NCBI GenBank assembly: GCA_025449115.1
Contig: JAHLKC010000229.1
Location: forward strand, 1-36,297
Reading direction: 5' to 3'
Origin: Chytridium lagenaria
Taxonomy: Eukaryota > Chytridiomycota > Chytridiomycetes > Chytridiales > Chytridiaceae
DNA: 36,297 nt
A model generated the notes under the pieces. The model made no database searches, was not told the origin of the DNA, and saw nothing but the letters and a program-made list of their open reading frames with translations. Of this stretch, positions 1,376 through 36,297 are shown one piece after another. The translations under genes and the position numbers were made by a program. The first letter of the stretch is position 1. Every line of letters begins with the position of its first letter.

Positions 1376-1429
1376 CGGGTTATATCCCATAGTACAAAAC
1401 CGACGACAACTAAAAAAATTTCGTCGAAT
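1376..1429 (+). repeat. Left terminal inverted repeat
   Basis: CGGGTTATATCCC at the outer edge is followed by the core AAAACCGACGACAACTAAAA and TTCGTCGA. Aligned to the reverse complement of 15331-15382, the core matches exactly over about 24 bases; the outermost 20 bases match with a few substitutions and one indel. Confidence 0.88.
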
Positions 1430-1993
1430 TTGGATATAGTTTGCCGTAAATCGGCGTATGCTGCCGCTTTTGCACCAAATCAATTCGTTGGTCACACAAT
1501 ATTCGCCACTTATTAAATGCGGCAGAATACCGCCAAATACGTAAATTTTTTCATCATACGGGGAGCTGAATTTTCGGTCACGCAATGGAAATTTCTTTAT
1601 TTTACAGAATTCAGACAGTACCACAGGATTTGCATCGAACTATACTATAGCGCCGTAAACGGCCATCTACGGGAGTCTTCTGTTTCTCCACCATAAGGAC
1701 TTTACCGTAACCTAAAGCTTTTAATCTGAATATATATTCATTACAGTCGTACTTAAAAATTATTAGGACTCATAAGCCACGTGTGCATAAAGAAAACGTT
1801 CTTCCTATTTAGCCCACATACACAGTGTTCAGTACAAACATTGACGTCAGACCGCAATACTCTTTTCCACAAAGGTATTTTTACCTTTTTTGCTTTTGTC
1901 AAACTATACTGAATTTGTGGTCATATTCTTTGTGTATACGCTGACTGTCGCAGAATGTTGACACTGCCAATGCAGGTATAATACGTTTTGTCG

Positions 1994-2133
1994 CGTGTAC
2001 GTACGCTTACGTGCGTACACGTGCGTTTCTGTACGCGTGCGTACGTGTGCGTACATTTGCGCACGTAAATGTAAGACGCGTGCACAAGTGTACGTAAACG
2101 TACGCAAACGGTGCATGTACGTACGTATAGTGG
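1994..2133. repeat. Alternating purine-pyrimidine ACGT/GTAC tract
   Basis: About 140 bp made almost entirely of CGTAC, GTACG, ACGTG and TGCGTAC words, many self-complementary. It lies 3' of the reverse-strand gene in the subterminal part of the transposon and is preserved at 31915-32047 in copy 2. Such alternating tracts can adopt Z-DNA or cruciforms; that is inference here. Open frames across it (Arg/Thr/Tyr-rich) are by-products of the repeat. Confidence 0.7.
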
Positions 2134-2305
2134 AATCAATGCATACTTCGTGAACGTTCCTATACATACTCTTGTATTTTATTTTGAAGATGTTCACGAT
2201 TTTTTCTCTCTAAACTCCAAAAATAAATACATTCTGCACAAAATTGGGACTTTGATAAAAATATATTAACGTAATTTTGACCATCAACGTACAGCACCAT
2301 TAAGT

Positions 2306-4396
2306 TCAACGTCTATAATTCCTGGCGTTGTACCTGCGAGCTTTGTTAGGAGATATGTCGCTATCCGAAGAGGTGTAACTCAAGTTTGTACCGCGACGGT
2401 CGCGTAAACGAGATGTTGATCCCCTCAAACTACCACGTGACAGGCTTCTAGCTCTTCCCTTGTCAGGAGAAAAGCTAGCTGAATTTCGAATACGCTGAGA
2501 CCGGCGAGGTGGTGACGGGGGCAGTTCCTCAGATAAGATTCGTCGAGACCTGCGAGGTGGGGACTCTGAAAATCGTGGCAATGGTCTTACTCCTGGTCGG
2601 CGCACGCGGTTATTGGCTACAGCAACGTCATGCTCAAAAGAAGCTGAGGAGACTCTTCGTTGTGCTTTTGTCATGAAAACTAATTACTAAAGTGCTTGAA
2701 GCAAGGAAAAACTTACAGTTGCTGCTGTTTGTTAAGGCATCCACAGATCCCCTAATAGTTTCAAGTTTTTCGTCGAAGTTGTCAAGTCTTTCCTTCAACG
2801 CCAAAAGAGAGGATTCAAAACTTTTCTGCATATTGTCTTGCGCTTGACGTAGATAAGAGAAGTTAGATGCAAGCGTTCTCTGAGTCAAGTTGTTTTTCGT
2901 GTATAAGAAGGACGAGACTGTCTTGTTGTGCAGCAGCAGTCTGCAAATTCTTGCCGCCAACGCTAACAATGAAACAGTCGTTCAGCCTTTTGAGCTCGTT
3001 AACACCGAACCCTAAATCAAAAATAAGTTAATTTTAATATTTTAATTGTCAGCCAAAACATCAAATAAATGCACAGTATACAACAGTATACTACCGCACA
3101 CTACATTACACTGCCGCACACTACAGTGTACTGCCGCATACTACAGTATACCAAACGCACACTACAGTATACAACCGTATGTAGCCGTACATCATTGTAT
3201 GCGGAGTTTACCACCGTTACCAGCCGTACAATGACTATACACCACAATATACCTTGAATCCTTACCTGGAACATGCTTTTGAAAGCCTGGTGACATGTAT
3301 GCTTTTGCAGCCAAAGCCTCAGGGTACGTAGCTAATAAGACAATGCCAGCGTCAATCTTTCTACTCATGTTATCAGCCTGTTTTTTTATATTAGTTTCTA
3401 AAAATGTTCAAACCGATGGCAATGGGACTGACCGTCTGGAACAAGATGCTCCCAATGTCGACGGAAAAGGAGTTGATGTTAGAGCTTGTCCGAGTTAGCA
3501 TTTTGAAAATGCATTCCTTCTGTTGTTTGACTGCTTCACACTCTCTATAAAAGTAGGGTGTTAGCAAACTTGTTAGATCTTTCCCACCAGTATACCATCA
3601 TGCATCACTTGACCACTCCGAATCTTATATGCTCCTTCAATGGGGACAGGAAGAGAAGGAGCCGGTGGAGCACGTATTCTTGATTCCTCGTTAGCGGCAT
3701 CAACCGCCATCATGCCTGCAGTAACAGTTTCGTTGTCGTCTTCGCTGTAAGTTGGCTCCGAGTGGCTTCTGGACCCTGCAGCTTTATTGGATAAATAGTT
3801 AATTTTACCGTGTCAGTGAAGATGATCTGGATTTGAGTATGTTACAGAGTTCTCACCAAGGTTGTATTGGAACCCCTTCCCCCATGTTCATCATCATGTC
3901 CACCAAGGCTCATCGGTATGTTGATATGTCTGCACAAGTCAAAAAGCTCTGTTGTCAAACCATCGTATGCCTTTAAAATTTTCTTCCAACACCGTATGAT
4001 GCTGTCATATAAAAAAAGTTGACAACCGTACATAAGCGCACGTTACCGCAAACAACCATAGAATAAACGCATTAAACCATACATTGCCATAAATAAACGC
4101 AAACGGCCGTATACCACAGCCGTTAAGGTGATTAATGAAATATTTCAATATCTTGAGTCCATCGAATCGTAAACTTTTAAAACAGGTTTGTGGTCTGGTA
4201 CGTAGGTATACGTATACAGCTAGCTGCTGCGGTAAGCTAAGATAGGTTTATTTTATCACATCAACTTCAAACATTTGCCTTTTGGCCATAGACTCTAAAA
4301 TATTATAACTTCATGTGGCGCTTCTATATTTGATTGTCTTGTACAAAAGACGATGGAATACTTGCGTACCCCACCGCCTTCGTATGAATCACTCAT
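2306..4396 (-). CDS. Transposon passenger gene: spliced coiled-coil protein with basic PPRRS tail
   Basis: Function unknown. Exons on the reverse strand that join in frame by my reading: 3857-4001, 3596-3775, 3433-3544, 3266-3377, 2717-3011, 2306-2679, with introns of 37-254 bp that all begin GT and end AG. A first exon with an ATG at 4396 (MSDSYEGGG) is likely but its splicing is unclear. The product has an N-terminal part (CWKKILKAYDGLTTELF), a Ser/Asp-rich linker, a segment with FFRRHWEHLVQT joined to SRKIDAGIVLLATYPEA, a heptad-like region (LRQAQDNMQKSFESSLLALK), and a basic tail with two PPRRS(R/Q)RI repeats, suggesting a nuclear, DNA- or RNA-binding protein. Copy 1 carries frame breaks that copy 2 lacks (C-run near 3870, A-run near 2897), while copy 2 has its own near 32584. 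It is divergent from the gene at 4530. Confidence 0.62.
3040..3240. repeat. Degenerate tandem motif within an intron
   Basis: The 254-bp intron of the reverse-strand gene (3012-3265) is filled with imperfect repeats of ACTACAGTATAC, CTGCCGCACACTAC and ACCGTATG words. The same word family recurs in other introns and the subterminal repeats of this transposon. Copy 2 keeps it at about 32970-33150 with only a few changes. Confidence 0.65.
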
Positions 4397-4529
4397 TTGG
4401 TTGTCTCATTTGGTTGTATACACGGTCACAGACGGTTTAGTCAGTAAAAGAATAACCATCGTGAAAGTCAAAGTTACGTCTGATAGTGCGACATTAGTAT
4501 TACGTACGTAAAAAAATTCGACGAAGAAA
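4397..4529. promoter_or_regulatory. Presumed bidirectional promoter between divergent passenger genes
   Basis: A 133-bp gap separates the likely ATG of the reverse gene (4396) from the ATG of the forward gene (4530). It contains TACGTACGTA and no gene. The bidirectional promoter role is inferred from geometry only. Confidence 0.4.
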
Positions 4530-7236
4530 ATGTACTGTCCATGCTGTGCTGAAGACGTCCCCTCCGTCACGTCTAGAAAGATGCTTGAGAACCACATTAG
4601 AGATGACCATGCTTCCAGTGGTGCTCTCATAACCTTGCTTCTGAAGCTTGATAGTGAAGCGACCATTGAAAGAGTCTTGACTATGGTTATTGGCGGCGGT
4701 TCCCACGCCCAAGCGCAGCCCCCCCTAGCCCAGCAGACGCAACGACAGCCATCAACTATAGGCGAGTCTCGCTCAGCAAAAGGCACCTACCATATTGAAA
4801 CCAGGATGGCGGAAAAAAAGTAAGATGGTGTTGCTTAAATCTCTCATTTCTTTAGTGTTTTGGGGGTTGCGAAGCAACTTTTTAAGTTGAGCACAGAGGA
4901 GAAGAAGGCCATAGATAGGATGACGGCGGAGCAGAAGACGTTATCCGGAGCAATTCGAATGATTCCGCATTTGATTGAAGATGCAGCCGTAGCTGAAGCA
5001 TTACGTACGAAGATTACCGAGGTAGGCAAAGCTCTGTTGTTTTAGTGATATTGAAGTTGTTAGGCCAAAGAGAAGTATCTTGCCGCTTACCGTGCTGGGT
5101 ACACTCAACAAAATCCGAACGTTGCAAGCTATCAAGTCACCGATAACAATCAAGTTCGCATTGTTTGGAAGACAGGAAAAGAATTCGAGGAGGTACTGCT
5201 TTTTTCTTCCATACATTAATCTTACTTCGAGGGCGAGGAGCAACGCAGACCTAGCTCTCCAAAGCTTAGAGTCGGTAGCAGTAAAGCCATCTACGTAGAA
5301 GATGACAGTGACAACGACGAGGTCCACGCGCAATACAAGCCTGCCTTGGGACAGTACATTGAAGGTTTGACGACAATTTTATTTAAACTAATGGGTATAG
5401 AACCTAAGATTGCCTCAAAAGGTCATCCACTTGCATTGCGGGTCGACGTGAGCAAAATTCGGAAGAAACAAGAAGAGGAGGAGGCTGAAAGCCGACCACG
5501 AACGCCATCGGAAGAATACGAGGATCGACCCGTTAGAAAAGGTGCGTAATCTTCCGCCCTCCCCTGCTTTTATTTACTGACAGATGGGGTTTTTTCAACC
5601 GTTTACCGCCGCTTACTCCTTTTTTCACCGCATTTTTTGTTTATTTTTATTTTGCGCTTACTGAATTTGTTTAGGAAAAGCTCCAGCGGCAACTTTACAG
5701 CAGAGAAGGAAGGGTAGGCTTTAACTTTTTACTCAGCTTTGCTCACCACGCTAAAAGAGGAAATCGAAGGAGGACCGCCATCCGAGGAGTATGAGGAGGA
5801 GCCGCCCGTTGGAAAAGGTGTTTTAAAACGTTACATATATATATATAACCGGAACGTTTCAATGTGATTTTATATAGGTAAGGCTCCGAAGGTCGTGTTG
5901 CCGCGGACAAAGAGAAAGGGTAAGATTTATTACTTTATTTTTAAAAACGCTTGCTAAACCAAAGGGCAGAAACTGTTGAAGAAGAGTTCCGTCGAATTCA
6001 TGAGGAAGCGGCAGCAGCTGGTGGGTTAGATTTATTTAGCAATAAGCCGTTTATTAAACTTACCGATTATATGGAAGCACCGCCAGAAGTGAGAAAGGTA
6101 CTTAAATCTCCGAAAAGCCCCAAATCTCCGAAAAGCCCCAAAATAGGTGCGTAAATTTATTATATTCCTCGAAAACCAAAATAAAAACATGTGTGGTGGC
6201 GGGCTTGCCGACTTTAACCATGTTTACTTTTTCCCGGTGTCTACTCCAGTTTTAGCTTCTCTAATTTTCAAACAATTTTAGCCAAGGAACAGCACGAAGA
6301 GGTACCGATTTCTCCGGCAAAGTAAAAGCGGGTAAGTACTTTTATTGTTTTACTTTCGTGCCCTTTTTTCTTTTGTTCATGTCGTAATTGATATCATTCT
6401 ATTTTTAGTCCATGAGACGGTGCCGACGTCGCCTAAAGCTGTGAAATCATGTAAGTGTTTTATATTTTTTTTGTTATCACGAACTGGCCATCTTTATGGC
6501 TCTTTTTCCTTCACAGCCGTTTGCGTTTCCTTTTCGGTCGTTTGCGCTTTAATCTGGTTACTTACCCCCGTTAACGGCCATCTCCTCTATTCTACTACTT
6601 TTTCTGACTTTATATTACTCAGCCAAAGGTTTGCCCGTTTCAACTAAAGGCAAAGGGAAGGGTAATTATTTATGAGGTTTATTAGAAATTAACCGTTTAC
6701 TTGCTATTGTTTCAGGGCCAGAGATTCCTTCGGGAGAAGGTGAGTATTCAAAAAATAATTTTTCTGAAGTACCCTAATTATTTGTAAGGTGTCGCCAGCT
6801 CTTCAAAGGAGCTGCCGACGTCAAAGGGAAAACAGGTCGCAACCGAAAGTGAAGGTGAGGCGGTTGCTGTCCACCTGATGTACATTTTCGCTAATGTTTG
6901 GACAAAAATTTATTCTTATTTCCAATTTTTTTTTTTAAAAAACCAGAATCGCGAACTGCTACCCCCGAAACCGAAGGAACCGCGGAAACCGTCATCGTCA
7001 AACGTGGAGCACCCAAACGCAAACATCAGGAAGAGCGTGCTGGTTGGAGAGAGGATAAAGCACAGCTAATCTTTATGTAGCTCCTTCGCAAAATCGAAAA
7101 AGGCGAAAGAAACGCCTGAATTCCCGGACTGTAAGTTTAGCGTTTAGTTTCTAATTTTAACCCCTTAATTAATTTAGTCGTAACAAAACAATCCCCCAAG
7201 GACGAACTGTTATCATTTGCCTTCGGTTGGGGTTGA
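4530..7236 (+). CDS. Transposon passenger gene: zinc-finger N-terminus and a chain of phase-1 microexons
   Basis: Function unknown. Exon 1 (4530-4819) begins MYCPCCAEDVPS and carries CxxC followed by HIRDDH, a C2H2-like finger. Then 4856-5021, 5064-5192 and 5232-5541 join in frame (helical KLSTEEKKAIDRM; EDDSDNDE; KIRKKQEEEE). Next come short exons 5675-5713, 5758-5817, 5878-5919, 5970-6146, 6282-6331, 6409-6450, 6623-6661, 6716-6739 and 6789-6854, all entered and left in phase 1 and coding for Lys/Pro/Ser-rich links such as GKAP, SEEYEEEPP and four SPK repeats. A further exon starts at 6947; the 3' end is ambiguous, with stops at 7080, 7181 or 7234. In copy 1 exon 9 lacks one base compared with copy 2, producing an early stop near 6323. 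The charged, proline-rich tail suggests a scaffold or DNA-associated protein. Confidence 0.68.
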
Positions 7237-7629
7237 ATTTAACTTCAAGTAATAGCAGGGAGGAGATTTGGGATGTAAGTGACTTTGATTATTATCTTTA
7301 CTAAGAAAATTAACATTATTTAGGAACTGTTGCAGCTTTGGATGTCCCTTTATGAAGGAAGACCCCCTGCAAGGATCTACGCCGATAAAATTGGTTTAAA
7401 CAACCAACATGGTGACACGTAGTTGTTTAACTTTTCCAGACACATAGCTGATTTGTACTTGAAATATCCACCTATTGCAAGATTTTGCTGCATTTGTATA
7501 ATAAATTCGTCTGTTCTATGTATGTTATTAAATGCGCTAAAAACAATAAAAAAGTGCGAATATATTACCGGCTTATATTGCCACGTGGATACATCTAAAA
7601 TTTTGATATAACTTTCTATGTGTTTAATG
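7237..7629. other. 3' region of the microexon gene, no separate gene
   Basis: A strong donor-acceptor pair (GGGAT|GTAAGT at 7275 and ATTTAG at about 7322) suggests that the transcript may extend here, possibly as spliced 3' UTR. Two AATAAA-like words (near 7499 and 7545) could be polyadenylation signals. Sixty-codon open frames on both strands overlap and show no motif. Confidence 0.35.
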
Positions 7630-8855
7630 CACACCCGCAAACTGGCGTCAGACGCTAGTGCAATACCTCAAGTGAAAGCTCTTGATGTGTTGAGGCTACA
7701 AGTAACGTGAACTGGCGTCTTATGCTCCTAACCACTCGGTATCGGTGGATTATCGTAGTTTATATATAAAACATGGGATGTTCATCGGCATAGATAATTG
7801 TAGCGACGCGTCAGCGTCTTGAAACCTTCACCAATGTGTTCCTGGATGCCTAATACCTTGTAATCAGCAAAGACCCCACCGTGATTGACGTTTCAACCCA
7901 TTTGCATGTGGTGATCCCGTCAGTTCACGTAAACTTGAGCATATGCAGGAAAATCATGATGTCGTACCCGCAAACTGGCGTCAGACGCTAGTGCAATACC
8001 TCAAGTGAAAGCTCTTGATGTGTTGAGGCTACAAGTAACGTGAACTGGCCTCTTATGCTCCTAACCACTCGGTTTCGGTGGATTATCGTAGTTTATATAT
8101 AAAATATGGGATGTTCATCGGCATAGATATTTGTAGCGACGCGTCAGCGTCTTGAAACCTTCACCAATGTGTTCCTGGATGCCTAATACCTTGTAATCAG
8201 CAAAGACCCCACCGTGATTGACGTTTCAACCCATTTGCATGTGGTGATCCCGTCAGTTCACGTAAACTTGAGCATATGCAGGAAAATCATGATGTCGTAC
8301 CCACAAACTGGCGTCAGACGCTAGTGCAATACCTCAAGTGAAAGCTCTTGATGTGTTGAGGCCACAAGTAACGTGAACTGGCCTCTTATGCTCCTAACCA
8401 CTCGGTATCGGTGGATTTTCGTAGTTTAATATATAAAACATGGGATGTTCATCGGCATAGATAATTGTAGCGACGCGTCAGCGTCTTGAAACCTTCACCA
8501 GTGTGTTCCTGGATGCCTAATACCTTGTAATCAGCAAAGACCCCACCGTGATTGACGTTTCAACCCATTTGCATGTGGTGATCCTGTCAGTTCACGTAAA
8601 CTTGAGCATATGCAGGAAAATCATGATGTCGTACCCGCAAACTGGCGTCAGACGCTAGTGCAATACCTCAAATGAAAGCTCTTGCTGTGTTGAGGCTACA
8701 AGTAACGTGATCTGGCCTCTTATGCTCCTAACCACTCGGTTTCGGTGGATTATCGTAGTTTATATATAAAATATGGGATGTTCATCGGCATAGATATTTG
8801 TAGCGACGCGTCAGCGTCTTAAAACCTTCACCAATGTGTTCCTGGATGCCAATGC
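7630..8855. repeat. Tandem array A: ~334-bp unit, about 3.7 copies
   Basis: The word GCAAACTGGCGTCAGACGC recurs at 7636, 7970, 8303 (one change) and 8637, giving periods of 334, 333 and 334 bp. Units differ by few substitutions. Each contains small inverted motifs (GGCGTCAGACGC, GACGCGTCAGCGTC, CCACTCGGTATCGGTGG). No frame stays open across units. The array lies immediately upstream of the transposase gene. Confidence 0.93.
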
Positions 8856-8939
8856 TTTTCAAAAACACGCCATTACTCTACCCACTCTTGTAATGTTGCT
8901 GATGTATATTTGATTGGCGTTTGTTTTTGGATGTAAACG

Positions 8940-8968
8940 GCAAAATTATATAAGGTTGAATAAAATGA
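8940..8968 (+). promoter_or_regulatory. Possible TATA element upstream of the transposase
   Basis: ATTATATAAGG at about 8945 precedes an ATG at 8965 and sits between array A and the first recognisable transposase exon. The ATG opens only a short frame ending in a T-run. A promoter is plausible from position, but the true start codon of the transposase is not resolved. Confidence 0.35.
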
Positions 8969-9108
8969 CAATTTTTGGTAGCAAGTTTTTTTTTTAAGAT
9001 TTTTCACTCCCGCATACAACAGTAAATGTGTAACATCGGTGGTAAGCGGTTGTATGCTGTGAAGTACATGTTTATACTGAGGTATGCGGGTCTGTTTTTT
9101 GTTTGCAG

Positions 9109-12100
9109 AATTATTTTATTTGCCATGACCTTGTCAAAATCCACGTTGAAAACGTGATTGTCCGTGATTTTAACGGAAGTACCATGTATTCTGCAAACTT
9201 GGGGACCTTGAGAGATAGGCCCTATACCAAATGGGAAAAATACATGCAAAAGAGGTTAGCCTTGAAGGGCCTAGTTTATACACGCGGGAATTTAGGTATT
9301 CCTTTATGGCTTGCCGTTTGCTGATGATCTTAAGATGCATACGTCGAAAAGGAGCTTTCGTGGACTGTACTTGACTCTGGTTCCGACACATCCCGAAACA
9401 CAAGTACTCCTTTGCATGGGGCCACCTTTCAGGATGCTTCTAGTTTACAAGCAGCAATAACGGAATACACTTTGATGGATCCATATGGTGATGTTACAAT
9501 TCAGGATGGTGAAGGAATGGACAGGGATATACCGGCAGATATCAACATATCTGGATCAGACCGAATTGGATACGGTCCAAATGAGTATGATAACCAATTC
9601 TAGTATGTCATCTAATGTATTGCACCATAGCACTGAAGAATACCGACGAAAAGTGTTGATTGATTACAAAGAAAGTATTCTAAATCAAGAAACCACTGCA
9701 GCGCCTCGTCCCAACAACGTATTCATTCTTCAAGACTATAGCGCCAATCCTAAAGTGAATCAGGTATCGACGTCATGATCTAACAGCTACTGATATTTGG
9801 AAGAAAACTAAATTCGTTTCGCTTCAAATATACAATATGGGGATGGAATTGGAGCGAACCGAATGCAACTGCACTCGTAGAATATCGACTTGTATACATA
9901 AAGACGTTATCCCCTTTGTTAAAGATCACATTAAATATCCGCAAGGTGAGCTTAGTTTTTTCTCGGACGACACAGTTGTCCACAACAGCGGTATCAGACA
10001 AGTTGTACGCTTACCGCTAAATACGTACGTTTACTAGCGTTGTTACACGCATAAAGCCGCATTTGTTTGGTTGTTGCCATAACTGCACGCATACTGTTTT
10101 CAGCTTACTGCACCTTTATTAGTGTATAGCTGATCGCAAGCGTTTTTTTTTTTTATCTTCCACACAGATACAGACCCGTTTATAAGTCTTCACTTTGACA
10201 AGAGATTTAAGATATTCGCGGTTCTTGATGAAAGAATTACTACTGGATCGCAGTGGCTTATACTTCGCATGTTCATCAACAAAAGCAACAAGGTGGCTTT
10301 CCACTGCGAAGGTATCCATTGCAGAAATGGGAAAGTCAACGTCAGCCCATGTTATCACATTGATGTCCTACGAAAAGCTGATCCAAGTACATTAAGCTTC
10401 AGTCAACAAGTCGTATCTCCTGAAGAGGACGAAAAAAATGGTTCGGTGTCTTGGAAGCCAATACCCCCACCGCATTATTCACTTCTTGAACGTGAGGCTA
10501 GTTTTTGGCCTCCAAGAATCTTCAGGGCTGGAGAAGATGCGATTCTGAACCCTGGCACTGTCTTCTACCTTGAAGGTGACTCTCAATGCGTCTGCGGATT
10601 AAAGATACGAAATTGCGATTCTGAAAAAAGATTTCGGTGGTGTATGCTATACACAGAACAGGGTGCCGTTCGCTGCTTTATTGAAACAGCAAAATGCTCT
10701 CGTTGCCCTCCAAGGTATAACAGATTTATTGGGCCTGACCTTGGAGATCGGGGAATATTCAATAAGAACAATTTCTGTCTTATAACGCACTTTTTCCTGG
10801 ACAAGATAACGGAACTGATTACCTCAACAACATTCTCCTTTCACGCTTACTCAAAGCACTTACAGTCAAACTATAATGAGTTTGGTCGGGGAAGGTGCCT
10901 GTACAAGCCTCCTTCTAGTAAAGTCATATCTGCGGTAAGTCATCACTTGTCATAAATTTTTTTCCATTCCATTCCTGCAAGCTGGCCAGGTACTGCTTGA
11001 CCATCTGGATCAATGATCCAAATGCCCGCATACTAACGTTAACGGCGGTAATACACCGCACATAAACGTATGTTAACGTTTGCGGCCGTCTGTTTAAGTG
11101 TACAGCCGTAAACGGCCGTATGCGTTAATTTTGTACCTACTTCCGGGAATCCCTAACTTTTTTTTAGGCTTGGTTTTCCTTTCGTAAGATACAAGATTTA
11201 ACCATGGGCATGGATATACAATGCCCATTCTGTAAGGAAACTGGCTACGATATGGTTGCTTGTGACGGTATCAGCATTGGTTATCAAGAAGACAAGAAGA
11301 CAAGCAACCTCATCCCACCAACATTCATCGATTCATACAGCAGTGAGAACAACACTGTGAACTACTTAGCGTCAAAACAGGTGAGAAATTCTTTTGCAGT
11401 GAATATTCTAATATGGCATAGTTTGTGCCTAGCAGAAATGTTAGAAAGGCAGGACGAGAGTTCTGCGATATATTCAAGCATGTGCATAACGGTGTTACGC
11501 GTCAAATGAAAGCAGCTGGAAAAGAGTTGGGATTGCTTTTAAACGTATACTGGGACAATGCACCGCGTTTCATGGCATTCATACTTAGAGATGAGATATG
11601 GACCCCAGCTGAAATAGCGGCGCTTAGAACTTTGCTTAAAGTAGTGAGTATATTTCATTGTGCCGTATTACTCTTTGACCTATCGTAACATCTATAAAGA
11701 TATTCTGTGAACAGTCAGTTGTTACAATCATATTGCCTGTCGGTGATAAATGTCTTCAGGAATTAGAACGCTGGGAGCAGCTAGATGTGCAGGAGAAGTT
11801 GACTTTGATTGATGATCTTCGTCAAAACGTACCTTCAGTCGGCAATTTGTTATTTGAGGTCATTGTTGTTGGAAACAACACATATTTACCGGAAGAATTC
11901 ATCAAACTTGCTCAATGGTTAAGAAAGAGAAGGAATGTTGTTGAGAGCCAACATAGCCGCCATCCTGTAGCGGATCCAAAGACAACCGAACATGGAGATT
12001 ATGTGAACAAAAACTGGCAAAAAGTAAGTACAGAAGCCGTACAAAACCCCATGTAACCGTATACAACCGTATACTGTTATGTACCTTTGTATACTGCCGT

Positions 12101-12836
12101 TTACGTTTGTGTGCGCCCGTCTTTGGACTCTGTTGATTAACGCTTTCAAAAGACAGGTTCCTTTTACTTTTTACCTGAAATACGGCAACGTCCACGATAT
12201 CTCAACCTTGGACCTGCAGACAATCTACCTACAGCAGCTAAAAAGGGGACAACGGAAGCTGACGTTTGTCCTAAATATTACGACAGGCAGAGGAAGGCTA
12301 AATCAATGACGGCCGGAGCAATGGTTTTTTTATGTCGTCATCGATTTTATATTGGATTTCACCTTTTTCCTAAAGCTGAAAGCATCAATGATGTTTTCGC
12401 AACTCTATACACAAGGTACCATACAATTCAACAATTTAACTCTAAATCTTGCAGGTTTGAACAGTGCCCATCCATTTGTGTTGGTGATAATAATTGCCAT
12501 GCTGCAGACTACTGCACTTTGCGGGAGTACGAATTCTTCAAAGATTGTCGATTTGTTATAGACGATTTTCACTCAAATGCTCACAGGGGCTGTTCCGCTG
12601 CTTCTCACGCAAAACACTACAGAAAGCATATTAAAATTGGAGATCTTAATACGAGCTACACCGAATCGGCCAACCACAACATGGGAGTCTTGCGTCAAAT
12701 GGTTTCATATATGACTGAAGGACATGCTATTATGACTATATTCACCTACATTTGTATGGCAAATAGGACGGTTTGGAAGGAACTGTCAGTGAAGGGTAGC
12801 GAATTGTTTTTAAAAAAGTTTGCATGTCGACGATGA
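9109..12836 (+). CDS. Spliced DDE transposase with cysteine clusters (KDZ/HMGXB3-like)
   Basis: Likely exons: 9109-9295, 9335-9945 (with frame slips near 9590 and 9762), 10168-10934, 11168-11380, ~11433-11643, 11715-12023, 12153-12415, 12455-12836. Features in order: a SWIM-like CxC-x6-CxH cluster (ECNCTRRISTCIH); a CxC..C..C region (QCVCGLKI then AKCSRCPPRYNRF); CPFC; a first candidate catalytic Asp in ACDGISIGY; a second in GDNNCH; then FVIDDFHSNAHRGCS and YTESANHNMGVLRQM, which supplies the candidate Glu. The motifs from FVIDDFH to a terminal MANRT resemble the end of KDZ and HMGXB3-type transposases as I know them. The exon joint at 11380/11433 is out of frame as read. The protein would bind the element ends and catalyse excision and insertion in the nucleus. 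The true start is upstream and unresolved. Confidence 0.72.
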
Positions 12837-13086
12837 AGAATATATATTGTCTTATTACAAAAGTTAGTTTACAATGACTACGTTGAAATGGAACCGTAAA
12901 ATTCAAATGAGCCGTTACCAATTTCTTTTACATTAGACAAACCGCCGATCACGCCTGTTTACGGCTACGCGTCATTTTTTATGGCCGTTAGTTTTATGAA
13001 TGAATATGATATAATCTATATTAAAATCGCTGACTTTAGAAACAAATGGCATAATCCTCCAAACATAACGCTTCTATATGTTTGGT
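12837..13086. other. Spacer after the transposase, no gene
   Basis: AT-rich 3' flank. It holds ACGGCTACG and AACCGTA words of the element-wide motif but no open frame with coding character. Confidence 0.45.
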
Positions 13087-15170
13087 GTGATTAGGTAGCA
13101 TCCTGAACCATTTAATGCATTAGTAGATTCATGCCGATAGCAGAGGGAACAGTATACAACCGTAGACGGCCGAAAGCGGTTATGATAGAATATCCGTCTA
13201 AAGCCGTCTACGGCCGTTTGCGGCCTTTAGTTACTGTCTAACTTTTAAAACGGGATTTGCTTGCTGGACCGTGTTGACAGGTGGCTGTCAGTTGAAAGAT
13301 AAAAGGTTCATCTTTTGCTATGCTGCTGAAGATTAGAAGAGCTATGCCATGGCAAAGATTGGAGTGATTAGGTGGGGTCCTGAACCATTTAATGCATTCT
13401 AGCGCAAAAGTAGATTCATGCCGATAGCAGAAGAAACAGTATACAACCGTAGACGGCCGAAAGCGGTTATGATAGAATATCCGTCTAAAGCCGTCTACGG
13501 CCGTTTGCGGCCTTTAGTTACTGTCTAACTTTTAAAACGGGATTTGCTTGCTGGACCGTGTTGACAGGTGGCTGTCAGTTGAAAGATAAAAGGTTCATCT
13601 TTTGCTATGCTGCTGAAGATTAGAAGAGCTATGCCATGGCAAAGATTGGAGTAATTAGGTGGGGTCCTGAACCATTTAATGCATTCTAGCGCAAAAGTAG
13701 ATTCATGCCGATAGCAGAAGAAACAGTATACAACCGTAGACGGCCGAAAGCGGTTATAATAGAATATACGTCTATAGCCGTTTACGGCCGTTTGCGGCCT
13801 TTAGATTCTGTCTAACGTTTTAAAACAGGATTTGCTTGCTGGACCGTGTTGACAGGTGGCTGTCAGTCGAAAGATACAAGGTTCATATTTTGCTATGCTG
13901 CTGAAGATTAGAAGAGCTATGCCATGGCAAAGATTGGAGTGATTAGGTGGGGTCCTGAACCATTTAATGCATTCGAGCGCAAAAGTAAATTCATGCCGAT
14001 AGCAGAAGAAACAGTATACAACCGTAGACGGCCGAAAGCGGTTATGATAGAATATCCGTCTATAGCCGTCTACGGCCGTTTGCGGCCTTTAGATTCTGTC
14101 TAACGTTTTAAAACAGGATTTGCTTGCTGGACCGTGTTGACAGGTGGCTGTCAGTCGAAAGATACAAGGTTCATATTTTGCTATGCTGCTGAAGATTAGA
14201 AGAGCTATGCCATGGCAAAGATTGGAGTGATTAGGTGGGGTCCTGAACCATTTAATGCATTCGAGCGCAAAAGTAGATTCATGCCGATAGCAGAAGAAAC
14301 AGTATACAACCGTAGACGGCCGAAAGCGGTTATGATAGAATATCCGTCTAAAGCCGTCTACGGCCGTTTGCGGCCTTTAGTTCTGTCTAACTTTTAAAAC
14401 GGGATTTGCTTGCTGGACCGTGTTGACAGGTGGCTGTCAGTTGAAAGATAAAAGGTTCATATTTTGCTATGCTGCTGAAGATTAGAAGAGCTATGCCATG
14501 GCAAAGATTGGAGTAATTAGGTGGGGTCCTGAACCATTTAATGCATTCTAGCGCAAAAGTAGATTCATGCCGATAGCAGAAGAAACAGTATACAACCGTA
14601 GACGGCCGAAAGCGGTTATAATAGAATATACGTCTATAGCCGTTTACGGCCGTTTGCGGCCTTTAGATTCTGTCTAACGTTTTAAAACAGGATTTGCTTG
14701 CTGGACCGTGTTGACAGGTGGCTGTCAGTCGAAAGATACAAGGTTCATATTTTGCTATGCTGCTGAAGATTAGAAGAGCTATGCCATGGCAAAGATTGGA
14801 GTGATTAGGTGGGGTCCTGAACCATTTAATGCATTCGAGCGCAAAAGTAAATTCATGCCGATAGCAGAAGAAACAGTATACAACCGTAGACGGCCGAAAG
14901 CGGTTATGATAGAATATCCGTCTATAGCCGTCTACGGCCGTTTGCGGCCTTTAGATTCTGTCTAACGTTTTAAAACAGGATTTGCTTGCTGGACCGTGTT
15001 GACAGGTGGCTGTCAGTCGAAAGATACAAGGTTCATATTTTGCTATGCTGCTGAAGATTAGAAGAGCTATGCCATGGCAAAGATTGGCGTGATTCGGTGG
15101 GGTCCTCAACCCTTTAATGCATTCGAGCGCAAAAGTAAATTCATGCCGATAGCAGAACAAACAGTATACA
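13087..15170. repeat. Tandem array B: ~288-bp unit, about 7 copies, higher-order organised
   Basis: ATTCATGCCGATAGCAG starts at 13127, 13414, 13701, 13989, 14277, 14563, 14851 and 15139, so units are 286-288 bp. Variants fall into type A (ACTTTTAAAACGGG) and types B and B' (ACGTTTTAAAACAGG), in the order A A B B' A B B'. Units 2-4 and 5-7 therefore repeat a ~862-bp trio. Every unit has the inverted arms CCGTAGACGGC and GCCGTCTACGG (sometimes GCCGTTTACGG) about 35 bp apart, followed by GTTTGCGGCC. The last unit decays near the right end of the element. Confidence 0.94.
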
Positions 15171-15330
15171 GCCGCAAATGGCGGTGTACGATTAAATTTT
15201 TGTGCAACAAAAAAATTTAGTAATGCTTGCGGCTAATTACTGCCGTTTTTGTCAAAGCATTGATGAAACTAGATTGGTAATGTATTTTGGTAACCGTACA
15301 TAACCGTATGTTTACGATACGGTCATGAAA

Positions 15331-15382
15331 ATCGACGAAGTTTTTTTAGTTGTCGTCGGTTTTGACCTTGGTATTTATCCCG
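15331..15382 (-). repeat. Right terminal inverted repeat
   Basis: ATCGACGAAG TTTTTTTAGT is followed by TGTCGTCGGTTTT and an outer end ATTTATCCCG. Reverse-complemented, it matches 1376-1429. GAAAACAC follows directly at 15382-15389, the candidate target duplication. Confidence 0.87.
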
Positions 15383-18673: not shown

Positions 18674-21600
18674 TCAACGTAGGAGATTAAAGCAGAAGGA
18701 GGAATTAAGGAGACAGCGTGAGAACGAAGAAAGGAAGAAAGACGAGGACGAGGGAAGGAAGAGAATCAAAGGCAAGGCGGAGGGTACGTACACAGAGCGG
18801 GCAGACATCAAACGCGAAACCAAGTCCAAACAGGCCAGGGGGCACGACGGAAAAAAACCACGCGCGCAGGGGGTGAAGCGGGTGGAGACGGTCAAGATGA
18901 TAGGTGAACGAGGTGAGGAGAGAGTCTGCCCGGAGTGAAGGTGCCCCAACCAGCAAAGAAAAAGCCAAATTGGAGGGAAAAGAAAAGGGAGAGAAAACCA
19001 ACGTGCAGCAGAAGCATAGAGGTCAGAGAGGGCGGCAAAACCAGCGGAGGCCTGAAGACGAGCAAAAAGAGCAAGGCAGACAAGCCCATAGTCCAACAAC
19101 GGGCGCCAAAAGGTGCGGAGGATGGTCAGGCGAGCGGAAGGGTGCCAGAGAGAACCAGAGGCTTGGAAAGCGGCCAACGAAGAGCGGGCGCGGAGGACAT
19201 ACCCAGGCAGCCGGCATCAGGATCTCCAGAAGCGTGGCGTTCCCAGTCCACCCAAAGGAACGGTGGGGCAGACCAAGGTAGCGATAGGAAAGACGGCGAG
19301 GGAGAGGAACCGGCGAGGAGGAGGGGAGGAGCCAACTGAGGCAGGCCAACAACAGCGCTTTTGGATAAGTTGTACAGCATGCCAACCGAGAGAGCCCAAT
19401 CGGAACAGAGGTCAAGCAGGTGTTGTGCGTGGGAGAAGAAAAAGCTTTAAGAAGTACATCATCAGCAAACAAAGGGCACAAGGAGAAGAAGGAAGTAAAG
19501 GAAAGGGTCCAACAAATGTATAAGAGGATCAATAAACAAATTAAAAGAAGGGGAGCCAGAATTGAACCCTGAAAGAGGCCACGAAGACGGGGGAAAGGGA
19601 GGGACAGGGAGCCATTAACAACAACAGATGAGGTCGTGTCACGAAGCATGAGGCCGTAAATGAGGGAGATGAAGATGGGGGGCAGCCGCGGGCGTGGAGC
19701 ACTTGGAGAAGCCGGGCGTGGTCCACGGAATCGTAAGCAGACTTGATATCCAGAAAGATGGAGATGGGCGCTTTTCCGGTACGAGAGAGGGCATCCGAGA
19801 GCAGGGCATGCGAGAGGCAGCTGAATCCATGGCGAAAACCAGCTTGGTGGGGGTGGAGAGCCAGCCAGGAAAATTCGCACGTTGAAGGAAGGAGAGGAAG
19901 ATACGTTCAAAAAGGCGGCGGAGCATGAGGGTGAGAGCAATGGGACGAGTATTGGGGGCTGTAGGGGGCTCGGTTTTTGGGAGGAGAGTAAGGGTAGCGT
20001 GATTCCAGGCGGTGGGGTGAGGCCGGAGGCAGCGCAGTGGCGGAAAAGGGAGGCAAGAGGGGAAGAAAGAGGGGGAGGGGATGAGGGCGCGGAGAACCAA
20101 TACGTGGAGAGAATCATGGCCGCAGGCTTTGTGAGTGGGATACTGGAGGATGGAGGAAGAGATGGAGGAGTTGGTGAAAGCGGCGACAAAATCCAAGGAT
20201 TGGGGAGGAGGGAGGGGAGGTGCAGGACGGGAGCGGTGTGGGGAGGAGCAAAAGGTTAGCATAGTGGGCATAGCAATCTTCCAGCGGGGACGTGGTGGGG
20301 GTGCGGGAGGTAAGACGAGTGGTGGGGCGGCGGGATCGTTGATGGCGTCGGAAGAGACGGATGTGGTCGGAAGGGGAGTACTGGTGGCCAGGGCGTCGGG
20401 AAGGCGGTCAGGAGTGAGTTGGATGGTGCCAGGGTCGTAGGAGCCAAGGACATGCTCGCAAGAGTAGTGGAGGGTGTCGTGGAGAGTAGCGTAGACGGAG
20501 TCCAAAGCTGCTTGCTGGACTGCCCGGGAGGACGTGTGGAGGGTGCGGAGGAGCGAGAGTTGAGAAAACAGTGGGGAGGCAGCCGCGTCAAAATGGTGAG
20601 CAAGATGGAGGGCAGTGGCGGGGTCGCGAAGCTTCTTGAGGAAAAACGACGAGGGGTGGGGTGGTGTGGGCGGGTGCACAAGAGGAGGAAGGGCCAGGGA
20701 GAGATGAAGAACACCATGGTCAGAAAGAGGAATGGCCAGCGGATCAGAGGGCGGTCGGAAGATCCAAGAGAGGGTGCACTGGCACAGGCCCAAAGGTGAT
20801 CAAGATGAGGGATGGCGGGGGAGGAGGGGTGGGGCGGCAGAAAGGTGAGGGGGTGGCGCGGGAAGTAGGAGTGAAAGTAGGTGATGAGAGACGTGCGACG
20901 GGGAACCGGAGATCCAGTGAGGGAGCCAGCCGAGGACATGGAGAAAGTGACGTTAAAATCTCCGAGAATGGCGAGGGGGCAAAGGACCGAGGGACAACGG
21001 CCTCCAGGTGTTGGATGAGGGTGGTAGCCAAGCCGAGGCGGGAAGTAACTGCAATAAAGGGTGAGGAATCAACTGTAAAACCAAGAACATATTCAGAACG
21101 AAAACACCAGGAAACGCGGGAAGAAAACTGGGACTACACGCAAGGAGTAGGCCATCATGTTCATGGCCGCGAACACCAGGGAGGCGAGGGGGGCGAATTG
21201 AGTGACCAACGACAAGTGGGGAGGAGGCAATTGCGGACCAGTCCAACCACCACGTTTCCGCAACCACAAATACATCAAAGGTGCCAGACCGTAAAAGACC
21301 AGTGAGATGCTGCCAGCCAGCGAAGCGGAGGCCGTGTGCATTTTGGTAGCCAATGGAGAGAGTCATTGCGGGGGGTGTTGACGCGCTTAGCAGCAGAGGC
21401 GAGATCAGAATTGGAATTGCGTTTATTGGGACGACGAACAACAAGCGGGGTCTCAGGGGGAGGGGAGGGGAGGAGGGAGTCGGGGTAACATCTTTGGTGG
21501 TGGAGGGGGGGAGGTTGACGGAGGGAGGGCAGTTGGGGTCATAGAAGGGGTCAAAGGTGGGGGCAGGGACGCAGCAAGGGAGGGAGCAAGAGGAGGGAGG

Positions 21601-21717
21601 GTGACAGGGAGAGTCTCGCCATAGGAGGCAGGGCAACGTGGAGGAAGTAGTGGCGCAAGGCAAGCGGCTTGGTGGCATCAGTGGCGCCAGCGGAAAGACG
21701 AGCAAGGGCGCGGTCAC
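18674..21717 (-). pseudogene. LINE endonuclease-reverse transcriptase polyprotein, frameshifted
   Basis: Reverse-strand reading. The endonuclease/exonuclease/phosphatase domain is seen as LSIGYQNAHGL, VVAETWW, LGDFNV (near 20950), LDHLWA and SDHGVLHLSL (about 20720). The reverse transcriptase follows: KACGHDSLHVLVLRAL, LLPKTEPPTAPNTRPIALT, DIKSAYDSVDHARLL with the first catalytic Asp (about 19730), GLFQGSILAP, and FADDVLL carrying the catalytic Asp pair (about 19470). The C-terminal region to about 18674 is Leu/Phe-rich and not recognised. The motifs lie in canonical order for LINE-type target-primed elements but fall in several frames, with breaks in both the nuclease and RT parts. The element is probably inactive as read. 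Long plus-strand open frames here are antisense shadows of GC-rich coding DNA. Confidence 0.78.
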
Positions 21718-21973
21718 GAATGGCAGTGCGGGTCACGGAAGTGAGACAGGAACGGAGGGATCAAAGGTAGGGTCGAAAGTGCCAAATTTTGCAGCATCTA
21801 AAGAGGTCAGTAGCTTGTCTTTCTGATCCTTGTGAACGGTCAGACCAACAATGGAGGAGTTAATGTAAAAGAGGTCCGGAATGGGGATGGAGGGGGCCAG
21901 GGCACGGAGATCACGACGAAGCTCGCTGAGGCGGATCCAAGGGGCGTCACGGTAGTACAGGGTGACAAAATCA

Positions 21974-22617
21974 TCAGGGGAGGTGAAGCGGGGGGTGGAG
22001 TAGCGGCGGTACGGGCAATGCGAGAGCGACGGGCCTCATTGAAGCGAGCAGCAATGGCAGCGGGGGAGGAACGATCAGGGGGAGGCAGGGCAGCAACGGA
22101 AGCGTAGGAAGCAGCACGGGGAGCTGGGGCAGAGGTTGGGGGGTCAGGGTGGAGGCCTGGAGAGCAGAGGTGGAGGAGGACGTCGAAAGGGCAGTCAAGG
22201 TCGAGTTCAACTTGGTCATCAAGGCGGGGAGAGGGGCGATCACAGTGTGGAGGTCTCGAAGGTAGTTTGGTCGGAAAGGAGGTGGACAGCGTTGGGTGAG
22301 GGCCATGGGAGAAGGTACGAAGACAGCAGCAATAATCTGGTAGCCAACATCACGAGGGCCAGCAATAGAGTTACAGTTGGTGCAGAGGACAAAGGGAACG
22401 ATCCACGCAGAGGGAACCGTTGCACTTGGGGCAGGAGGGCATGAAGGCATGCCAGTGGTGGACAAAGGGTACCCAGGCAGTGGAGTCCGTAGTGTGGAAA
22501 GGTGGGAGGAAGACAGGAGGCCCAGAGGGAGCGGGGCCGCCAGGATGGGTAGTTGGAGTCACTGGGCGGGTGGGGTGCCACCAGGGGAAGCGGTGTGAAA
22601 AGAGGTTGGCGAGTCAC
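21974..22617 (-). pseudogene. LINE N-terminal Cys-rich region
   Basis: Upstream of the nuclease on the reverse strand, two overlapping frames read PSCPKCNGSLCVDRSLCP and VPFVLCTNCNSIAGPRDVGY. Put side by side they suggest a CxxC-type zinc-binding module split by a one-base shift, followed by a Ser/Pro-rich part. This is where LINEs keep an ORF1-like or N-terminal nucleic-acid-binding module. No precise family is assigned. Confidence 0.45.
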
Positions 22618-22635
22618 TCATCAGGTACGGCACGT

Positions 22636-22780
22636 CAATCAATATAAGAAATTCAATCAATATAAGAAATTTCAATCAATATAAGAAATTTCAATCAATA
22701 TAAGAAATTTCAATCAATATAAGAAATTTCAATCAATATAAGAAATTTCAATCAATATAAGAAATTTCAATCAATATAAG
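22636..22780. repeat. 19-bp minisatellite CAATCAATATAAGAAATTT, ~7.6 units
   Basis: The unit recurs head to tail from 22636 to 22780; the first unit is one T shorter. It begins exactly where GC-rich LINE sequence stops and AT-rich DNA begins, so it marks the LINE 5' junction or insertion site. Confidence 0.95.
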
Positions 22781-23082
22781 TCAAATGATGTCAGTGTTTC
22801 TGAAACCATAAAAGTAAATAAATATAATTGATAAGCAGACATGAAGAATTGTCACATTAAGCATTGTCACAAGTGTGACAAAGAGTATTAATAATAACTT
22901 TAACAGTGTAATACAAGAGGCCCTAATAATAATATAGCCGCCCTTGAATACAAAACAAAAGCAAAATTTACTCTCTGAAAATCACCCAGTCCAAAGCAAG
23001 CCTTTATATATTCGGAGAAAAAAAAAGAGTTGAAAAGGTGCAACACTCTCACCGAATCCATCATCGTCCATGCGCATCATAA
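22781..23082. other. AT-rich spacer between LINE copies, no gene
   Basis: No coding frame. It contains an inverted pair, GTCACATT...ATTGTCAC and TTGTCACAAGTGTGACAA near 22862-22880, the latter a good palindrome; nothing else is recognisable. Confidence 0.45.
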
Positions 23083-24306: not shown

Positions 24307-25255
24307 TGTGAAGTTCTCTCTATGGCCCCCTCTGTTAAGCCCCGGCATACAGAGGTAGAGAACCACATAATAGGTGACAAGACTAGCGTCTAGGAGGTAC
24401 TCCTAGATCAAGAGTCAGGCCCTATTCTGCCTTTAGTGACAGCGGGGATTTAAGTTGCTGTGGTTCTGCTCTAAAACTAATCATATGAAAGAAAGGAAGG
24501 AAAAGGAAGGAAAAAGATACTCAGGCGGAGATCCAACGCGCCAGAGTGGAAGGGTCACTCAAGGAGGGAGTCCATCCGCTCCTAGTAGTGTACAAGGCCT
24601 CGTAATCGCCGCAATAAGCCGTTTTAACATGTTCTCATCTGATCTCTTCTACCTAAGGCCCTGCTCATGCCGCACTCCCACTCACAGGCAACTAGATAGC
24701 CAGTCATCGCAATCAAGAAAAGAACAGAGGTGGTTATACTACCCAACCTTCGAAGGAATCATGCCACAGAGGCGTCTATCCAGGGCTCAGGCCTTCTTAG
24801 ACTCAAGTGTCTTGGTTCAAGGTGTAGTCTCCCCCAGCGGCGTAATCCCCGAGCGCCCGCAGGTACAACTAAATAACACAATATTGAATAACAGAAGAAT
24901 GAAGAAAGCATGGCCCAAGGGCAGCCATGCCTGGATGTATGGGTGGGATCAATCCAGGACTACAGAGGTGCACGTCAATCTATTCAACTTTCTACAAATA
25001 ATAAAACAATACATAAAGGGGAATCAAATAACAACAACAGGCATCTCGACCAACGTGGTAGCATGTCATAAGTTGGCATACCACGTCAACCGCCCTTCCT
25101 TCTATAAAAACCTCTCTCGTATCTATGGGGAAAAACTATGAAAAACCCCGAGAGGGAAAAGAATGGAACGGGAACAACAAAATAAGAATAAGGGCACGAC
25201 GTCTATATAAGCGACGCATTCATGCCTCTTGGTGAGGTTATCCAATAATCTCACA
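24307..25255 (+). repeat. Long terminal repeat-like direct repeat 1
   Basis: 949 bp starting TGTGAAGTTC and ending CCAATAATCTCACA, so its ends are the inverted pair TGTGA/TCACA typical of LTRs. A near-identical copy is at 30296-31243, with seven differences in the first ~175 bp. A TATA box (TATATAAG, 25204-25211) sits 45 bp before the end, the usual U3-R layout. A 228-codon open frame (24455-25141) runs through it but is broken by indels in the second repeat and is not called as a gene. No clear tRNA primer site follows. Confidence 0.75.
25203..25211 (+). promoter_or_regulatory. TATA box of the LTR
   Basis: CTATATAAG precedes the putative R-U5 segment and the downstream ATG at 25298. The same word occurs at about 31194 in the second repeat. 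Confidence 0.5.
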
Positions 25256-25297
25256 AGGGGAGATCACGCCGCAAGGCCACGCGCGTGGTGATAGAGG

Positions 25298-27108
25298 ATG
25301 GGGGATCAACTCAGTATCAACTACTTAACTATCACCGATCGTCACTTGTGGACTTATGTACCTACGCGTGCTTTAGAAGAATTCCCCTTACGGCATTCCA
25401 AGACAGTAATAGCCCGCCCTCCCTCCCATAACAGTGAAGGTGTTGGTCTCGCTGATGCGTCGCCCTCTCAAGTGTGGGTGAACATGGTAAAAAGTCATAT
25501 TCCCTCAAGAGAGAATCTGAGTCAAAGCTTGCAGTATAGTAAGAGATCTGATGTCTTTGTTAGAATGACACCAGAACCGTTGAAAGACATTATCAAGGGT
25601 ACTAAGGACTATGTCTATTATCCTGCGAGACTAGATGGTCTCAAACGAATTTGGATAGTTAATATCAATGATGATAGAGATCCTCTAGGCGGTGAGCCTC
25701 ATAGAAAGCATGGCGCCGTTACCCACGTCATGCATGTCTCCAAACCAATTCCCCCAGGAACTAATGAGTTTCCTGATCCTATGTCAATGGGATTAGAAGA
25801 ATATATGAGAAAGTATTATGCTTATCGTATTTATGATATCCGCGAGCTTACGTACCCTATTCCTGAACGGAAAGAGCGTAAGACGGATCCATTATCCTTA
25901 CTAGAGTTGTATGGAGTTAATAGTACCACGCACTTTGCAAGAGTACCTGAGAATATGGTCAACGACTGTAAACCAAATACGTTGAAAGAACTTAAACCTT
26001 CCCCACAAGTGAAGTCTCCATTGATTGAAGACTCTAAGCTACGAATAGTGAGCTGGAATGTTAATGGACTCCATCGCTTAGCCATGGTCCTCTATGGACA
26101 GAAGTTGGAAGGCGATGAAGCCAATCCGGCAGAATGCCTCGCTCGATATTTCGAGAAGCAAGGTTATCAGATAGTATGTCCCAAGAGACACGCATTAGTC
26201 AGAAAAGACAGCTCTTCTGGGATCAGTTGATGAACCTAGAGAACTGGAACGTGCATGCCGATGACATGAGATCCGGTTATGCTGGTGTCGCTACTTTTGT
26301 CCGCAAGGGACTCCCCGTCATAGAGAAAGAGGCCCGCCGAGGCATCTGTCTCCGTGAGGATTCTCCTGATAACGAGTGGAGCCAAGGAGGTGAAGGTCGA
26401 TGCGTGACTATCTCTCTACCCGGAATGTACGTCGTTAACGTGTATGTCCCTAACGGGTCTAGAAGTCAAGCTAGACAGGATTATAAAATGAGATTCCTCT
26501 CTAAATGCAATAGTTTCATCGAGGAGATGAAACATAGGAAGAGCACTATCGTCGCTGGCGACTTTAATGTAGCTCGTTCCTCATTCGACATACGCTTTCC
26601 TATGCGTATGGTTGGTTATTCTGGCTTTGAGCAAGAAGAAGTTAAGCTCTTCAACGAGTTGTATTTTTATAAGAAGCATGGCTTCATTGATGGCTTTAGA
26701 CATTGCCATCCACACGACCCAGGTTATACTTGGCATGACCCGCAAGCCAGACACCAGAGCTTGTGGAGGGTCGACTATATAATGATTGATCCTAGCCTTC
26801 ACGCTAGGTGGTCAGTTCACCATAGATATATGTCTGGACTTAGTGACCATCAACTCGTAGAGTTGACGATAGAACAAGAAGATCCTTTTCTCGCTGGGAC
26901 TGAAACGTTGATGACGTTACCAGTCTTAATAACCGATCCTGAAGTTCACGTGAATAACGTAGATAAGGATGCGGAGAATAGAAGTACGCGTAAATCGAGT
27001 ACTAAGAAAAGTACAAGTCGCGTAGATGACACTTTGAACGACGTCTTAGCCTTTAATAAGACAAGTGATGATTTTAGTAAGCATCAGAGAGATGACCTGC
27101 TTACATGA
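25298..27108 (+). pseudogene. Unknown N-terminal domain plus exonuclease III/AP-endonuclease-like nuclease
   Basis: An ATG at 25298 lies 43 bp after the LTR. About 245 residues of unrecognised sequence (for example IWIVNINDDRDPLGGEP) precede an endonuclease/exonuclease/phosphatase domain: LRIVSWNVNGLH, SQETRIS with the metal-binding Glu, GYAGVATFVRKGLP, VNVYVPNGS, IVAGDFNVA, DGFRHCHPHDPGYTWH, LWRVDYIM and GLSDHQLVEL with the catalytic Asp-His. The order and spacing match exonuclease III-type AP endonucleases rather than the shorter LINE type. A one-base loss in the C-run near 26180 puts the first 290 residues in a different frame from the rest. A Ser/Lys/Thr-rich linker follows. The position, where gag-protease-RT would normally lie, is odd. 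Confidence 0.75.
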
Positions 27109-28446: not shown

Positions 28447-28775
28447 GCGATAACTCGAGAGATCGGGTTAAAGTAATAATGATACATCGTGGTGTCATCA
28501 GTGATATGGCGCAATTTAGAGCATACAAGCCTATGTTGATAAGAACACTATGAATGTGTACTTAGATGAACGTTGTATTTTACAACCAAGAGATACGATA
28601 AGTTAGACGGTGCGCCCTTGGGTCCTGGTTCTAACATTATACGTTTGTTGGTGGACAAGATTCATCACGTCGATACCCCTATGGTGTTGATACAAACTCG
28701 AGAAGATGTTGAGTCTCTCGTTGATAACATACTTGGTACCGCACACGAAAGTGTGGTACTGAGGGATCTTCCACT
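28447..28775 (+). pseudogene. Linker region between integrase core and C-terminal domain
   Basis: Coding-like sequence continues after the 28444 stop in shifted frames, with MIHRGVISDMAQFRAYK and then SNIIRLLVDKIHHVDTP. It ends at a stop just before ATG 28776. No domain is recognised. Together with the end of the previous segment it makes an unusually long insert before the integrase C-terminal domain. Confidence 0.45.
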
Positions 28776-29829: not shown

Positions 29830-29932
29830 CTTTAGAAGACTTTGTATTCACTACACTTTACTAGTCTATATAAGATATGTATATATTTATCGTAAAAACT
29901 CACGAGGGACCTTGTTCTCAAGTGTGGGTGCA

Positions 29933-36243: not shown

Positions 36244-36297
36244 GTAAGTACTTTTATTGTTTTACTTTCGTGCCCTTTTTTCTTTTGTTCATGTCGT

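Follow-up and report, generated by a model that had tools for sequence, protein, structure and literature searches.

The window, a stretch of 36,297 nucleotides that forms one contig (C229) of the Chytridium lagenaria genome (41.9 Mb in 356 contigs), contained a KDZ-type DNA transposon of ~14 kb with terminal inverted repeats (TIRs) at positions 1376 to 15382. The best-matched 37 nt of the TIRs were found at 1395-1431 and 15328-15364 and continue outward to 1376 and 15382, respectively. The element is flanked by AAAACACAC and AAAACACGC, an imperfect 9-nt duplication recognized by eye only. A CxC4/KDZ-type transposase gene was predicted on the plus strand at 9184 to 12836, with 9 exons at a stricter setting of the gene finder and 11 at another setting, and its intron phases were mixed. 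The CxC4 cysteine cluster of the transposase scored 87.5 bits in Pfam against a cut-off of 26.9, and in a scan of the single ORF 12141-12836, the KDZ transposase domain (PF18758) stayed at 16 bits, below its cut-off of 26.6.

Upstream of the transposase gene and on the same strand, we identified an apparent accessory gene of 18 exons at 4530 to 7422, which harbors an array of exon cassettes. This position within an element bearing both TIRs and a CxC4 transposase agrees with a preceding sequence-only reading, in which the gene was described as transposon-borne. The left part of a second copy of the element was located at 31317 to 36297 on the plus strand, where the contig end cuts within the intron after the tenth exon of the array gene.

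Additional features were observed in the window. The element carries a second gene on the minus strand at 2303-3800, also present in copy 2, which is apparently spliced and R/S/P-rich with PPRRSRRI-type repeats; its stretch 2306-2683 yielded no Pfam hit. Tandem repeats of the element comprise four copies of a ~333-nt unit at 7633-8850 and seven to eight copies of a ~287-nt unit at 13082-15258. Adjoining copy 2, an LTR-retrotransposon-like insertion at 24857-31243 has direct repeats at 24857-25156 and 30845-31144 and, by eye, an integrase-like ORF. A repeat end similar to this insertion lies just upstream of the array gene at one paralogous place (L047), and similar LTR-retrotransposon-like sequence was seen by eye roughly where exon 14 ends at another (L049). 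Minus-strand ORFs at 19023-22781 appear by eye to be non-LTR retrotransposon-like and adjoin a 19-nt tandem repeat at 22630-22781.

Exon map of the array gene

In our hand model, all exons of which lie on the plus strand, the gene begins with four conserved 5' exons, E1 (4530-4819), E2 (4856-5021), E3 (5064-5192), and E4 (5232-5364), with phases 0>2, 2>0, 0>0, and 0>1. Introns 4 to 16 are all in phase 1, and E5 to E16 thus form twelve symmetric exons in succession: E5 (5401-5541, 141 nt), E6 (5675-5713, 39 nt), E7 (5758-5817, 60 nt), E8 (5878-5919, 42 nt), E9 (5970-6146, 177 nt), E10 (6282-6331, 50 nt here and 51 nt in the sister copy C349 and in copy 2 at 36193-36243), E11 (6409-6450, 42 nt), E12 (6623-6661, 39 nt), E13 (6716-6739, 24 nt), E14 (6789-6854, 66 nt), E15 (6947-7042, 96 nt), and E16 (7081-7130, 50 nt here and 51 nt in C349). 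Two conserved 3' exons close the gene, namely E17 (7178-7274, 97 nt here and 98 nt in C349, phase 1>0) and E18 (7324-7422), which includes the stop. Nine consecutive phase-1 exons had been claimed for 5675 to 6854, and the hand model returned them with the same lengths and phase; E5, E15, and E16 lie beyond that interval and extend the run to twelve.

The sister copy C349 has 18 exons and 580 codons that are read without interruption in the hand model. Relative to it, E10, E16, and E17 have each lost one base in the window copy. Other copies retain intact sequence there, in 11 of the 12 rows covering E10 and in 5 of 6 at the E16 and E17 places, indicating that the window's own gene is broken or misassembled. 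All 12 middle exons of C349 are symmetric, so that any of them could be removed without a change of frame, as had been proposed. Among introns 4 to 16 of the window gene, nine of the 13 contain in-frame stops, and two (introns 4 and 8) are a multiple of three in length and free of stops.

Two further observations concern other copies of this gene. The copy on C18 (L016) has ~80 extra bases near the place corresponding to window position 5376; by eye, they resemble an incompletely duplicated unit that includes an in-frame stop. The exon 9 SPK repeat of this copy is longer by nine bases. An isolated match of 98 nt (92%) to exon 12, intron 12, and exon 13 was found at C39:47973-48070, with a CxC4 remnant ~2.1 kb away at C39:50167.

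The hand model was compared with public protein models of C. lagenaria, which may be purely computational. BC829DRAFT_444013 skips 12 residues at the start of E2 and then, from a point inside E2 to the end of E8, matches it gap-free; its acceptor for E9 lies 5 nt upstream of ours, and its protein stops soon after. BC829DRAFT_449828 (533 aa) starts later than our model of the paralog L043 and otherwise matches it save for a single gap of 3 residues. The shorter public model P0003 (221 aa) departs early from the family sequence and gives the array no support.

Paralogs and exon-intron units

A 193-residue draft of exons 1 to 3 matched 51 rows in the genome. In protein searches, each of which scored only ~8,000 candidates with short exact words in common, no relative was detected outside C. 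lagenaria, and a distant paralog used as the query likewise gave no protein match at E <= 0.01 among such candidates. A CxC4 match was located within 8 kb of 16 of 39 gene places, against 0.7 expected. Nine of these 16 matches were on the same strand as the array gene, and seven (at C114, C255, C207, C40, C95, C221:11132, and C77) were on the opposite strand, which perhaps reflects two layouts of the element.

Complete open hand models were obtained for C349 (18 exons, 580 aa), L043 (18 exons, 576 aa), and L044 (13 exons, 536 aa), in which 34 of 34 middle introns were in phase 1. The penultimate exon is 98 nt with phase 1>0 in each of the three, and L043 and L044 share the phases of the first four exons with the window gene. 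Over the alignment to L043, identity was 50% for L044 and 27% for the window protein. At these identities of 27-50%, the end exons are kept, and 12 or 7 other symmetric exons stand between them: L043 has exons of 93 nt, seven times 45 nt, 39, 42, 153, and 135 nt, and L044 has exons of 147, 57, 81, 12, 36, 153, and 165 nt. The array of the L041 group (L040, L041, L042, L047, and L049) is of like kind; L041 itself was left out of the complete models because a one-base shift in exon 2 of its hand model precludes an open CDS. Uncurated models of the distant members L048, L050, L053/L054, and L055 and of the decayed L046 and L047 had mixed phases. On this evidence, an all-phase-1 run of middle introns can be claimed for C349, L043, and L044 rather than for the family as a whole.

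The paralogs provide direct evidence for the growth of the array by duplication. L043 has a 45-nt exon plus 72-nt intron, together a 117-nt unit, seven times in tandem, and seven tandem matches to this unit were found in each of C114, C244, and C331 (21 in total; one per place at only 79%). Compared with one unit, the others in the L043 array range from identical down to 60% (exon) and 45% (intron) identity. In the three most diverged units of C114, identities were 0.98/0.85, 0.89/0.54, and 0.60/0.45 for exon/intron, with the exon better kept. Additionally, L042 differs from L041 by a 344-nt insertion that adds symmetric exons of 39 and 63 nt; the repeat in L042 is 94% alike across 233 nt, and the two loci are ~98% alike over 2.7 kb before the insertion and 97% after it. 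The growth by exon duplication suggested by the sequence-only reading is thus seen directly in L043 and L042, and its signal within the window gene is weak. Four of the 66 exon pairs of the window gene were similar at p<0.01, two of them (E5-E7 and E6-E8) in register with each other; the resemblances of E5-E7, E6-E8, and E10-E11 had p values of 0.002-0.004 each, which are weak after correction for 66 pairs. The traces of duplication in the window gene are older than those in the paralogs.

As judged from these alignments, there is good support in the family for the duplication of exon cassettes that leave the frame unchanged, and the duplication of symmetric units is also the likely origin of the window's array. 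The symmetry of the exons might alternatively reflect combinatorial alternative splicing of the kind known from the microexon genes (MEGs) of schistosomes, in which the skipping of cassettes would keep exons symmetric and generate many putative linker variants. The removability of each of the 12 exons is compatible with this explanation, as are the stop-free introns with lengths in multiples of three (introns 4 and 8 of the window and six in the L043 array), which would be frame-neutral if retained. However, the duplication of symmetric units already accounts for the symmetry, and of the 12 exons only one has a length of 36 nt or less; we consider such splicing unlikely to be the explanation. 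The six L043 introns leave the 117-nt unit open across them, and they were set aside as evidence of retention because copies of one unit share this property by descent.

Substitution patterns in the five comparisons made for the L041 group revealed no clear coding constraint, and the alignments break in the last exons. Divergence in symmetric exons and introns was 0.366 and 0.287 (L046), 0.044 and 0.065 (L047), 0.106 and 0.098 (L049), 0.204 and 0.132 (L042), and 0.201 and 0.176 (L040). A third-position excess was present in L047 only (6, 7, 13) and absent in L046, L049, L042, and L040.

The phase-1 run compared with chance

Genes were predicted by phase-free dynamic programming (DP) with splice-site weights and codon preferences, the codon table being trained on window exons 1 to 5 and the transposase. 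The final splice weights were taken from the hand-set junctions, since weights retrained on the program's own output drifted and over-split exons. With splice weights from the paralog L041 alone, DP recovered 16 of the 17 C349 introns and predicted 18 introns in C349 at two stricter settings. With weights from both L041 and C349, all 17 were recovered when the most stringent of the four settings was used.

The C349 gene scored 228.7, compared with 116.6 ± 10.7 (maximum 147.5) for 200 dinucleotide shuffles of its middle with the ends kept, a contrast that is partly circular because C349's own introns contributed to the splice weights used here, and window exons 1 to 5 and the transposase to the codon table. 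At the setting of the shuffle test, 13 of the 14 middle introns predicted in the real C349 were in phase 1, and the longest phase-1 run was 8, interrupted by an extra intron that DP placed within the 177-nt exon. In the shuffles (n = 200), the longest phase-1 run averaged 2.27 and never exceeded 6. This phase-1 result is not built into the gene finder. As controls analyzed by the same uncurated method, the transposase gene had two of eight introns in phase 1, and three host chaperonin genes had five of 18. Fisher's test of 13/13 against 7/26 phase-1 introns gave p = 1.3e-5, where the 13 are hand-modelled and would be non-independent if the exons were duplicated.

A preference for phase 1 could also arise if introns had been gained independently in a continuous K/P/S-rich coding region offering similar proto-splice sites (K-G codons, AAG|G). 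Many junctions do read AAG or AGG before the GT with a split G-codon, and introns predicted in shuffled sequence were somewhat more often in phase 1 than in other phases (1067 of 2530). This explanation is at odds with the paralogs, in which exon and intron were copied together in tandem, and with the window gene, in which exon pairs recur in register. We regard it as improbable, and independent intron gain as the sole cause is disfavoured.

It is more improbable still that the exons are a reading illusion in an unspliced or decayed region, with L043 representing a coding minisatellite. The open 117-nt unit across six introns of L043, the three one-base losses of the window copy, and the L041 group without visible coding constraint would fit such an artefact. 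In contrast, shuffled sequences fall far below the real sequence, most junctions are common to two public models, in-frame stops occur in most of window introns 4 to 16, and three paralogs have complete open CDSs. Taken together, we consider it probable that the predicted twelve-exon phase-1 array of this gene, which seems to be an accessory of a KDZ-type transposon, grew by tandem duplication of exons together with their introns.

The encoded protein and comparison with known systems

The residues K, P, S, T, E, and G made up 62% of the middle of the window gene product and 40% and 38% of its ends, and they accounted for 62-68% of the middle in the three complete proteins. The Lys/Pro/Ser-rich composition proposed earlier was thus recovered; the placement in tails was not, the array encoding a middle between conserved ends. 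E1 begins with MYCPCC...LENHI and is zinc-finger-like. The N-termini MYCPCC, MFCPAC, and MYCPGC conserve C3, C6, H22, and H31 in a CxxC...H...H pattern and, by eye, would speak against a signal peptide or secretion. A Pfam scan of the end exons yielded no hit over the cut-off; zf-C2H2_12 remained below it (E = 0.3, 11.2 bits against 27.3), and the C-terminal pieces gave no SAP hit. A short conserved C-terminal motif looks SAP-like by eye, with no tool confirming it. AlphaFold2, given 3 sequences as input for the public model P0002, gave a mean pLDDT of 47.6, with a helical N-domain in which blocks of residues 51-130 reached 71-90, and the middle was mostly below 50 without confident structure. 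A Foldseek search of this model against the PDB returned no match at E <= 0.001. These features suggest that a flexible linker connects an N-terminus that is zinc-finger-like and helical to a short conserved motif at the C-terminus, and the protein may be a nuclear transposition cofactor that acts with the transposase and has an adjustable linker length.

The predicted gene structures show conserved end exons of fixed phase, a variable middle, tandem units in paralogs, and a differing number of units in copies that are nearly identical. The K/P/S/E-rich middle would be encoded by the twelve predicted symmetric phase-1 exons, and the array would grow by tandem duplication of entire exon-plus-intron units with the frame intact. 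Unequal exchange or slippage between units may add or remove a few K/P/S/E-rich residues at a time, and because both boundaries of each unit follow a codon's first base, the frame and the folded ends would be spared. It is likely, from the copies compared, that the middle of the protein grows and shrinks without loss of frame. A bolder proposal is that a selfish element carries a self-extending cassette, the symmetric units of which would multiply within the element, vary in number among the copies of a genome, and be combined by the host spliceosome into many linker variants of a transposition cofactor. We give this proposal only a small chance; if it is true, the transposon diversifies its own protein through splicing.

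Ancient animal genes are the usual source of inferences about exon duplication; here, the process was caught with units ranging from identical to barely recognizable. The element is present in multiple copies within a single fungal genome, where age, copy number, and unit number are all readable, and the family would offer a tractable case for the origin of symmetric exon arrays and disordered linkers. It would also add to KDZ-type transposons a cargo gene family whose end exons match no Pfam family over the cut-off.

Other cargo genes are known from the KDZ (Kyakuja-Dileera-Zisupton) elements of fungi, namely TET/JBP, according to passages of PMC12730594. The main text of PMC12730594 uses none of the terms 'zinc finger', 'SAP', and 'accessory', and no title among the matches listed from the open-licence literature concerned symmetric-exon arrays in a fungal transposon. 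The present element resembles these transposons in its CxC4 cluster over the cut-off and in carrying a cargo gene, but the gene is of another kind, with end exons lacking a Pfam hit, and the host is a chytrid.

In the MEGs of Schistosoma, conventional end exons flank small symmetric ones. Passages of PMC5825161 state that ~80% of their coding region lies in symmetric exons of 6-36 bp and that their products are, almost without exception, secreted or membrane-anchored. The present gene shares with MEGs a run of small symmetric exons between end exons, an exon symmetry that would keep the frame upon skipping (12/12 middle exons symmetric in C349, 12/12 in L043, and 7/7 in L044), and possible isoform diversity. 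Nevertheless, exons of 36 nt or less number 1 of 12 in C349 (1% of coding), 0 of 12 in L043, and 2 of 7 in L044 (3%), and symmetric exons make up 48% of the coding region. The gene is thus too coarse in its exons to be called a microexon gene in the schistosome sense, as the sequence-only reading had done. Unlike MEGs, it belongs to a transposon, and where a signal peptide would be expected its coding sequence has, as judged by eye, no evident one and opens with a CxxC motif that is zinc-finger-like.

Collagens, elastin, and titin PEVK are exon-duplicated repetitive animal genes. Collagen evolved by exon duplication and has successive symmetric exons for extended or disorder-like sequence, as described in PMC4838654. 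The present gene is similar to collagens, elastin, and titin PEVK in its exon duplication and in its symmetric exons for sequence of that kind. In contrast to these animal host genes, it is a fungal transposon gene in which units have changed recently between copies.
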